Below, piece by piece: positions 11,781-17,697 of a stretch of DNA of 64,000 nucleotides (the first letter of the stretch is position 1; each line of letters starts with the position of its first letter). The stretch is taken from NCBI GenBank assembly GCA_913062955.1, contig CAJXZP010000001.1, forward strand, positions 62,001 to 126,000, read 5' to 3'. The notes under the pieces were generated by a model. The model saw nothing but the letters and a program-made list of their open reading frames with translations. It was not told where the DNA came from and searched no databases. A program made the position numbers and the translations under genes. This DNA is from an uncultured Flavobacteriales bacterium (GTDB taxonomy: Bacteria > Bacteroidota > Bacteroidia > Flavobacteriales_G > Salibacteraceae).

Positions 11781-11785
11781 ATGTT

Positions 11786-12124
11786 GCAAATCTATAAGCC
11801 GGATTCTGTAATAGCTTATCATTTATCTAGCCCCATCGTCACCAATGGGATCAAGCAATCTACCCTCTCCGTTTGGACGGGTCGCCCTCAAACCGGAGTT
11901 TATTTGATTTTTCATCGCCTGAGGTTTACCTAGCCAAAACTGTCACCAATCTTGCTGGTGAGCTCTTACTTCACCGTTTCACCTTTACCCAAATAAATGG
12001 GAAATATACTCTCTGCTGCACTTGCTGTCACTAATAAATTAGCGCCTTCCCGTTAGGAAGCAGGCTACCCTTTGATGTCCGGACTTTCCTCATGCCCTTA
12101 CGGACCCGCGATAAGCCGATTTGC
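11786..12124 (-). ncRNA. rnpB: RNase P RNA (type A, catalytic RNA of tRNA 5' processing)
   Basis: The minus strand shows the universal RNase P core: 5' GGCATGAGGAAAGTCCGGAC (conserved region I, near 12075-12094), a GGTGAAACGGTG / AGCTCACCAGC segment, and the 3' strand ACAGAATCCGGCTTATAG (conserved region V). The ends are set by helix P1, where GCAAATC at the 5' end pairs with GATTTGC at the 3' end, giving about 339 nt. RNase P RNA cuts 5' leaders from pre-tRNAs. A TATCTTTG box lies just upstream and a terminator just downstream, so it is its own transcription unit. Ends may be off by a few bases. Confidence 0.95.
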
Positions 12125-12128
12125 GCAA

Positions 12129-15478: not shown

Positions 15479-16462
15479 ATGATGGAAGTAAAAGCAAAAA
15501 TGTCGCATTTGTTCCGACCATTAAACTTGGTCATTATTGGTTTGACCATGTATTTATTGAAATACGGACTATTGCACGCCATGTTACGGATGTTAAGTAA
15601 AATTGTGAAGGTGGATTTGGTTTCGCAAATGAGTCCTTTTCAGTTTACACTTTTGGTGGCTAGTGTACTATTCATTGCCGCAGGCGGATATATTTTAAAT
15701 GATATAAAAGATGTGAAAACCGATGAGTTAAATAGATCTGCTAATCCAGTAGGAAAGTTAATTACCCTTGAAAAAGCAAATACTTTATATCAAGTATTTA
15801 CGGTTATAGGTTTGGTTTTTTCTTTTTGGATCGCTTTTGATATCGGGAATTACAATTATGGAATTATTCAATTAACGGCAGCCATTTCATTATGGTTTTA
15901 TTCCAATTACTTCAAATCAGAATTTCTATCGGGAAACTTGGTGGTTGCCTTTGTCGTGGCTTTAGTACCTCTTACTGTGGGAGTGTATGAAGTTTCTTTG
16001 GTCCAAATTGCTTATTTCAATAAGGTACAAGGTTTTCAAGATTTCAATTTTAACTTTTTAGCTTATTGGTTTTTGGCCTATAGCACCTTTGTTTTTGTTC
16101 TTACTTTAATTCGGGAAATTGAAAAAGATATGGAGGATGTCACAGGCGACCAATCTATCGGAGCTAAAACCTTGCCTATTGTATTAGGAATAAATGCTGC
16201 CAAAGGGGTGGCAACCTCTCTTTATGTTTTGGTGTTGATTGGATTTTATTGGGTGAGAGTGAATTTCTTGACCGACCCAATTTCAGGGACCTTTATTCTG
16301 GTTTTCATTTTATTAATTCTTTTGAATTTATTTCAATTATGGAGTGGTAAAACCATTTTGGCTAAAGTGAGTACATGGTCCAAAGTAATCTCTGTTGTGG
16401 GTATTTTATTTCTGTATGCTTTAGGGTACATAATTGATAACGAACTTTTTTTCAATGTATAG
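15479..16462 (+). CDS. UbiA-family prenyltransferase
   Basis: 327 residues with about eight or nine membrane segments. The first Asp-rich motif is NDIKDVKTD (N74, D75, D78, D82); the second is EKDMEDVTGDQSIGAKTLP on the opposite loop. Both bind Mg-prenyl diphosphate in UbiA enzymes. Bacteroidetes homologues are often labelled geranylgeranylglycerol-phosphate geranylgeranyltransferase; the acceptor cannot be told from sequence, and menaquinone or another lipid is possible. Two adjacent ATGs (15479 and 15482) both fit. Lies between kdsC and maf with no intergenic space. Confidence 0.85.
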   Translation: MMEVKAKMSHLFRPLNLVIIGLTMYLLKYGLLHAMLRMLSKIVKVDLVSQMSPFQFTLLVASVLFIAAGGYILNDIKDVKTDELNRSANPVGKLITLEKANTLYQVFTVIGLVFSFWIAFDIGNYNYGIIQLTAAISLWFYSNYFKSEFLSGNLVVAFVVALVPLTVGVYEVSLVQIAYFNKVQGFQDFNFNFLAYWFLAYSTFVFVLTLIREIEKDMEDVTGDQSIGAKTLPIVLGINAAKGVATSLYVLVLIGFYWVRVNFLTDPISGTFILVFILLILLNLFQLWSGKTILAKVSTWSKVISVVGILFLYALGYIIDNELFFNV

Positions 16463-17030
16463 TCATCTAGAAAAATACCAACTTGTTCTCGCTTCTAATT
16501 CCCCCAGGCGTCAACAACTTCTAAAGGATATGGGGGTTGATTTTACGGTCCAAAGCTCAAAAGGGGAGGAAACCTACCCCGCCAATTTAGCCGTGGGTAA
16601 TGTGGCTGAATTTCTGGCGATTCAAAAAGCAGATTGGTTCGATGATTTTTCGCACAATGAGCTTTACATAACTTCGGATACCACGGTGGTTCTTGATGGG
16701 GAAGTACTCGGGAAACCTACCAATGTACAGGAAGCAAAAAAAATGCTTTTAGCGCTTTCTAATAAACAACATGAAGTGATTACTGGATTTTGTTTGAAGT
16801 CGCAAGAAAAGCAAGTTTCTGGCGCTTGTGTAACCCAAGTACATTTCAAGAAATTGGAAACTTTTGAATTGGAGTATTACGTAAATAATTTCAAACCATT
16901 CGATAAAGCGGGATCCTATGGAATTCAGGAATGGATAGGGATGATTGGAATTACTAAAATTGAAGGTTCCTACTTTAATGTGATGGGATTGCCTACGCAT
17001 GAGATTTTTAACGAATTAAAGCATTATTAA
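16455..17030 (+). CDS. maf: Maf-family nucleotide pyrophosphatase
   Basis: 191 residues from the ATG at 16455, which overlaps the prenyltransferase stop; a TTG start 21 bases upstream would add an unlikely tail. Signature LVLASNSPRRQQLL near the start, SDTTVVLDGEVLGKP in the middle, and DKAGSYGIQEW near the end (the Asp and Lys of the catalytic site). Maf proteins hydrolyse non-canonical or modified NTPs (dTTP/UTP/m7GTP types). Length is normal. Last gene of its operon. Confidence 0.92.
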   Translation: MYSHLEKYQLVLASNSPRRQQLLKDMGVDFTVQSSKGEETYPANLAVGNVAEFLAIQKADWFDDFSHNELYITSDTTVVLDGEVLGKPTNVQEAKKMLLALSNKQHEVITGFCLKSQEKQVSGACVTQVHFKKLETFELEYYVNNFKPFDKAGSYGIQEWIGMIGITKIEGSYFNVMGLPTHEIFNELKHY

Positions 17031-17104
17031 GCCAAATTCGATATAAGTAAGATGTAATCAGTGATTTAGATGGTTTGTGCTTGAGAAAAAAAACGTCTAT
17101 AAAG

Positions 17105-17217
17105 GAATAAGACCCTGTCTCTCGACAAGGTCTTCTTCAACCATCTACTTAACCCTACTCTTAAATGTCTTCATCTACGGTAGTTGTAGAAATATGTTTT
17201 GGGCTCCTTAAGTATGG
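17105..17217 (-). ncRNA. Candidate structured small RNA (6S-like layout)
   Basis: Inside the 301-base gap between maf and trxA. On the minus strand a promoter (17220-17249) is followed by an RNA whose 5' end ACCAU-ACUUAA pairs with UUAAGU-AG-AUGGU about 80 nt later (two-base bulge). CCC/GGG extends this helix past a GGAG bulge, and UCUAC/GUAGA forms an inner hairpin. Directly downstream comes an 11-bp GAGA-loop hairpin. Long bulged hairpin plus terminator is the general layout of 6S-type RNAs, but identity is unproven. A 9-codon ORF (MKTFKSRVK) inside is probably chance. Confidence 0.5.
17109..17134 (-). terminator. Hairpin at the 3' end of the candidate small RNA
   Basis: AAGACCTTGTC-GAGA-GACAGGGTCTT on the minus strand: an 11-bp stem with one mismatch or wobble and a GNRA loop. 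The T8 tract lies about 15 nt further on, so termination strength is uncertain. It could also stop transcription arriving from maf. Confidence 0.5.
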
Positions 17218-17219
17218 TG

Positions 17220-17249
17220 CAAAGGTATACTCTCTTTAGAGAATTCCAA
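17220..17249 (-). promoter_or_regulatory. Promoter of the candidate small RNA
   Basis: Minus strand: TTGG (17249-17246), 18 nt, TACCTTTG (17227-17220), an exact TAnnTTTG. It points away from trxA towards the 3' end of maf, with no gene downstream on that strand, which argues for an RNA product. Confidence 0.55.
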
Positions 17250-17331
17250 TACTTTTTTATTCTTTTTTTACTTTTTTTTTTCAATTTGTCAAATTACGGA
17301 CGTTTTTGAGAACCGTAAAAAAGAAACAATA

Positions 17332-17697
17332 TTATACGGTTGCTTTAAGTAGCTCTTTATGAATGATATCGACCATAGCGTCCTTTGGTAAAGCCCCAGC
17401 TTGCATCATAGGTGGTGTTCCTACGGGTACAAATAACATGCTCGGAATCGAACGAATTCCAAATACACTGGATAATTCTTGTTCTACTTCGGTATCACAT
17501 TTGTAAATATCTAATTTACCTGCATATTCATCCGACAACTCCTCTAATAGAGGGGCGATCATTTTACAAGGGCCACACCAATCGGCATAGAAGTCAATAA
17601 TTGCAGGTTTTTCTCCTTTATACGCCCATTCTTGGGTTTTGGTAAAATCAAAGAATTTTTCTTTGAATCCTTCGGTCGTTAATTTTATTGTTGCCAT
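17332..17697 (-). CDS. trxA: Thioredoxin
   Basis: 121 residues from the ATG at 17697; the frame is open 13 codons further up but those residues match no thioredoxin. Active site WCGPCK with Cys41 and Cys44, preceded by IIDFYAD, and the cis-Pro motif SIPSM in the second half. It reduces disulfides in cytoplasmic proteins. No signal peptide. Single-gene unit, divergent from the thioesterase gene; a TATCTTTG box lies 25 bases upstream. Confidence 0.92.
   Translation of the reverse strand: MATIKLTTEGFKEKFFDFTKTQEWAYKGEKPAIIDFYADWCGPCKMIAPLLEELSDEYAGKLDIYKCDTEVEQELSSVFGIRSIPSMLFVPVGTPPMMQAGALPKDAMVDIIHKELLKATV

Follow-up and report, generated by a model that had tools for sequence, protein, structure and literature searches.

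A candidate autonomous small RNA gene in the maf-trxA gap of a Flavobacteriales bacterium, with a likely origin in a trxA 3'UTR element

The gap between trxA and maf carries what we read, with moderate confidence, as the gene of an autonomous regulatory sRNA that would act by antisense pairing, that has the leader of the gene orf119 as its best candidate target and that would have arisen from a trxA 3'UTR element. In the mechanism that we propose, an sRNA of about 110-125 nt would start from a TAnnTTTG promoter of its own within this gap and would end at a hairpin terminator. Its G/U-rich core (about 17132-17166), partly held by a 5' "anti-core" arm, would pair with mRNA leaders, and pairing about 110-120 nt upstream of the orf119 start codon would alter translation or stability, in a direction that we can only infer. 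The independence of this small RNA, put forward in the original prediction, is well supported by sequence comparison: promoter, structured body and hairpin end are kept syntenically in three species. It would represent a new sRNA family of a known kind, with the gene in only three species. Throughout, G000 is the genome of the window (the whole 64-kb stretch of DNA analysed), G001 and G002 are two other species of its genus, and G005 belongs to another genus.

Locus, promoter and terminator

The sRNA gene lies on the minus strand, downstream of trxA (thioredoxin; 17332-17697, minus strand; PF00085 and TIGR01068 above cut-off) and facing the convergent maf gene (Maf-family nucleotide pyrophosphatase; 16455-17030, plus strand; PF02545 and TIGR00172 above cut-off). 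Read on this strand, the gap opens with a TTGG-N18-TACCTTTG promoter and the 5' arm ACCAUACUUAAGGAGCCC; an inner hairpin and a stretch rich in G and U come next, and then an 11-bp hairpin with a GAGA loop. All the parts that had been described from the letters alone are present on that strand, namely the TACCTTTG box (17220-17227) with TTGG (17246-17249) exactly 18 nt away, the pairings ACCAU/AUGGU, ACUUAA/UUAAGU, CCC/GGG and UCUAC/GUAGA, and the 11-bp hairpin itself. The sole Rfam feature of the window is a complete RNase P RNA of bacterial class A (11781-12127, minus strand, 250.6 bits).

The TACCTTTG box corresponds to the -7 element of a Bacteroidota-type promoter, the consensus of which is TAnnTTTG as cited in PMC7366714, and TTGG to the -33 element. 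Taken alone this match is only mildly informative, because TTGG-N18-TAnnTTTG occurs four times in the window, against 0.44 expected. Both elements are kept in these three members of the genus, always 18 nt apart although the sequence between them has diverged, the -7 box reading TACCTTTG in G002 and TAAATTTG in G001; a conserved promoter of its own is a mark of an autonomous intergenic sRNA. Transcription from TAnnTTTG promoters usually begins a little beyond the box, and the sRNA may thus include only part of the outermost ACCAU, which may lie at or before the start site. Promoter geometry places the probable transcription start at 17213-17216 (minus strand), 4-7 nt past the -7 box.

At the other end, the GAGA-loop hairpin (17109-17134, minus strand) is invariant in the three species and is the only terminator-like site within 16900-17400. 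It precedes a T-rich tail, although the T-richness is only moderate, and is a probable intrinsic terminator. The tail and U-run, UAUUCCUUUAUAGACG, occupy 17086-17108 (minus strand), and the conserved unit extends beyond the terminal hairpin, to 17092. The U-run after GACG (17086-17093) is found in G000 and G002; G001 lacks these eight U despite a tail that is invariant up to GACGTT, so the sRNA may end at about 17105 or at about 17086.

Conservation across the genus

A BLAST search of 100 related genomes found the element in G002 (E = 1e-68) and G001 (E = 7e-44), in the same maf-trxA gap. In the alignment of the three species, 75 consecutive columns (17092-17166, minus strand) are identical; this invariant block takes in the core, the whole terminator hairpin including the loop, and 17 nt of tail. 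By comparison, the fourfold sites of the kdsC-like, maf, trxA and thioesterase genes, counting only those fourfold degenerate in both genes compared, show an identity of 21-45%, which is about random. The three species are therefore well separated and their neutral sites are saturated. As judged from the alignment, the conservation of the element exceeds chance, since 75 columns are invariant at synonymous saturation and the substitutions elsewhere avoid the predicted pairs. The block shows zero synonymous variation despite that saturation, as befits a sequence with no coding potential, and its invariant loop, hairpin and tail are left unexplained by a pairing seed alone.

Predicted fold

The 5' arm ACCAUACUUAAGGAGCCC (17201-17218, minus strand) is complementary to the core and pairs with 17140-17155. 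These pairs are retained in the three species, except that in G001 one is broken and one is lost to a gap. The inner hairpin, UCUAC-aacuacc-GUAGA (17174-17190, minus strand), is also retained in G001 despite an altered, longer loop. The consensus fold of the three species, built on an alignment in which two small gaps were set by hand, reproduces the originally predicted structure, that is, an outer stem (5' arm with GGGUUAAGUAGAUGGU), a bubble and the UCUAC/GUAGA inner hairpin, with weak energy.

In the divergent 5' half, 3 of 24 paired positions are variable, as opposed to 19 of 30 unpaired ones (Fisher p = 1.5e-4, for three hand-gapped sequences and a structure that had been proposed from one of them). 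Such avoidance of substitutions at paired positions supports the fold. No base pair of the three-species alignment, however, carries a true compensatory double change. Compared with dinucleotide shuffles the whole RNA gives z = -3.2 (-3.6 to -4.6 across the three species), whereas the 5' 81 nt alone give -0.8, -2.0 and -1.2; the terminal hairpin supplies most of the excess in fold energy. When folded singly, the G001 and G002 sequences favor another hairpin that competes with this structure.

Relatives of the core and origin of the gene

The core, with 26 specified positions (TTTAAGnnTAGGGTTAAGTAGATnGTnGA; 17137-17165, minus strand), occurs once in the window, against a chance expectation of 0.00, and recurs directly 3' of the trxA stop codon in G001 and G005. 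In these trxA-linked copies the core is followed by an unrelated hairpin that replaces the GAGA-loop terminator of the sRNA, and the 5' half needed for the long bulged hairpin is absent. G001 harbors both forms, the 3'UTR copy and, 174 bp further on, the autonomous one, while in G000 and G002 only the autonomous copy is found. Homology to an mRNA 3'UTR, the hallmark of a 3'UTR-derived sRNA, is thus provided by the trxA copies of G001 and G005. Where other genera of the family have a trxA homologue, the core is absent after it, and the core pattern, with up to 3 mismatches, was found only in G000, G001 and G005 among 395 genomes of the class, a set that did not include G002, the copy of which is known from other searches. 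The trxA loci of named genomes were too distant to inform, and a literature search found no paper on an sRNA in the maf-trxA gap.

A covariance model run on 41 genomes left a clear gap below the five known copies, from 69 down to 33 bits, and the matches at or below 33 bits were inspected and judged to be chance. One of them, at 33 bits in another family of the class (L153, G046:C57), has ATTTAAGAGTAAGGTTAAAT before an A/T-rich hairpin; it is probably chance too, though its first 20 bases agree closely. Elsewhere, GGGTTTTAGGGTTAGGTTTTTGGGTTAGAGGC stands before a G/C-rich hairpin and is repeated on a short contig (L157, G019:C159), a GU-rich-then-hairpin layout that resembles the core. A 23-nt match to the 5' arm on contig C68 of G000 falls inside a 957-aa reading frame and was dismissed as chance, as was a match on a viral contig. 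No plasmid relatives of the element were found, and a mobile repeat or attachment site was ruled out by the lack of other copies in the genome.

Because G001 and G005 have the core, joined to another terminator, right behind trxA, the sRNA gene appears to derive from a copied trxA 3'UTR element that gained a promoter. In the simplest history, the copied element would have gained the promoter and the anti-core arm, and in two species it would have taken the place of the original. This order of events is one that we infer, and the reverse order of 3'UTR copy and autonomous gene is possible. We put forward more tentatively, as a possibility that we would not yet favor, that the locus shows an sRNA family at birth, in which the duplicated trxA 3'UTR element acquired promoter and anti-core arm and then came under the strictest selection (75 nt invariant). 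If so, the constraint would come from several partners at once, mRNA targets together with a conserved protein, and not from a simple seed.

The same copies raise the question of whether the element is a mere 3'UTR or terminator of trxA, a block stabilising or terminating the trxA mRNA next to an incidental promoter match, an explanation that we consider unlikely. The presence of core and hairpin directly after trxA in G001 and G005 agrees with it. So does our finding no good terminator between trxA and the element in G000 and G002, which implies that trxA transcripts may read into the element. In G001, however, trxA has a core and terminator of its own, yet the promoter-bearing copy downstream is perfectly conserved. 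Moreover, promoter boxes and spacing are retained in the three species, and an invariant loop, arms and tail are not needed by simple terminators.

Candidate target

Under the preferred reading, that of an autonomous pairing sRNA, the putative seed is AAGUAGAUGGUUGAAGAAG (17132-17150, minus strand), to which the orf119 leaders of G000 and G002 are antisense. The uncharacterised orf119 gene encodes 119 aa without a Pfam or NCBIfam match and lies downstream of an L-piperidine-6-carboxylate dehydrogenase-like gene. Its leader carries the near-perfect antisense sequence CTTCTTCATCCATCTAYTT at the orthologous position in both species (L180, G000:C42; L179, G002:C83), downstream of the terminator of the preceding gene and 120 nt (G000) or 109 nt (G002) upstream of the ATG. 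This site was retained though much of the leader diverged between the two species. The duplex energies are -42.0 and -32.4 kcal/mol, values equalled by 0 and 1 of 1000 shuffled cores, and the match in G002 reaches E = 5.7e-4 in that genome. Genome-wide, the near matches to the seed do not exceed in total those of a reversed control pattern, and when the tail or the 5' portion of the core was used to scan for targets, the matches were only the element itself, trxA-type copies and chance matches. We regard the orf119 leader as the leading but unproven candidate target.

Two further observations concern these sequences. The orf119 leaders of G000 and G002 also share a conserved upstream stretch containing ACCTACT motifs. 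In G001, the sequence CCATCAACTTAACCCTAC (L041, G001:C1:1210251-1210266), one mismatch from the antisense of the core, closely follows the stop codon of a 124-aa ORF, and a TetR-like gene lies about 100 nt downstream of it.

Some other role at the RNA level, as a protein-binding RNA or as a sponge pairing with another RNA, is rather improbable in our estimate; the orf119 match would then be a coincidence, or the site would itself be a paralogous sRNA gene encoded on the other strand. The absence of orf119 from G001, where the core is equally conserved, is in line with such a role, and so is the conservation of hairpin loop and tail alongside a single-stranded core; the anti-core 5' arm could, for its part, pair with the trxA-type copies. 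Coincidence sits poorly with the fact that, apart from the element itself, the seed has its best match in the G000 genome and in the G002 genome at this antisense site, which has the same position in both. As for an sRNA gene opposite orf119, inspection of the minus strand of the leader revealed neither a well-placed TAnnTTTG promoter nor a terminator conserved between the two species.

The 6S layout and the coding frame

The original prediction had likened the element to 6S RNA, with 6S-Flavo (RF01685) as the family to search for. This likeness was not upheld. Rfam searches of the element gave no match at any useful score, and the 6S-Flavo model had none under either the gathering threshold or a limit of E<=10; that model, which does detect relatives elsewhere in the class, has no match in the whole genome. 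The general 6S RNA model (RF00013) found none in G000, G001, G002 and G005, while control genomes were positive. A weak match to BTnc231, for which the gathering score is 80.4, reached 17.4 bits and was rejected as chance driven by the terminator.

A lineage-specific 6S RNA, which would mimic an open promoter and sequester RNA polymerase, with polymerase contact accounting for the extreme conservation, has in our view a very small probability. Its appeal lies in a long, imperfectly paired hairpin that contains internal loops and precedes a terminator, in the strong conservation of the 3' half and in a search that found no other 6S RNA in this genome. However, besides the absence of any match with both models, the conserved sequence does not resemble 6S-Flavo, the trxA 3'UTR copies have the core but no 5' arm, folding of the 5' 81 nt is scarcely better than that of shuffles, and the gene is confined to one genus, whereas a family-wide spread is expected of 6S RNA.

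A short peptide read from the ATG at 17144 (MVEEDLVERQGLIPL) is the least credible explanation, since this 15-codon ATG-to-TAG frame does lie inside the invariant block but has no synonymous change although nearby fourfold sites are saturated, which speaks for selection on the RNA rather than on a peptide, and the conservation continues on either side of a frame that is not kept in the trxA-type copies.

Significance and comparison with known sRNAs

To our knowledge, few sRNAs have been described in this phylum outside Bacteroides and Flavobacterium. The present one is unusual in the strictness of its conservation, hairpin loop and tail included, and in the coexistence of 3'UTR and autonomous copies. 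It combines this conservation with an mRNA 3'UTR origin that appears traceable, both copies being found in one species, and with a testable target leader, and would offer a compact case of 3'UTR elements becoming independent regulators in bacteria with promoters that are not of the sigma70 type.

Like 6S-Flavo (RF01685), the element is a small RNA of Bacteroidota in which a long hairpin is imperfectly paired, and it differs from that family in giving no model score in this genome, in its conserved sequence and in its phylogenetic spread. Its working mode would be most like that of GibS/FopS of Bacteroides thetaiotaomicron (PMC7366714, PMC11697453) and Rfp18 of Flavobacterium psychrophilum (PMC9723704), which are intergenic, terminator-ended sRNAs of Bacteroidota. 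As in these, a short intergenic gene has its own promoter and ends in a hairpin, its putative seed is highly conserved, and pairing with mRNA leaders is predicted. The element differs in that it matches no Rfam family searched and that, while the seed of GibS is a single-stranded 5' end, its conserved core belongs to the 3' half, where the 5' arm pairs with part of it. MicL and DapZ, 3'UTR-derived sRNAs with their own promoter (reviewed in PMC9438474), offer the closest parallel as to origin: the core is common to a trxA 3'UTR, and the gene lies downstream of trxA on the same strand with a promoter of its own. In contrast to MicL and DapZ, a 3'UTR copy and a separate promoter-bearing copy coexist in one genome, that of G001, while the other two species have the separate copy only.
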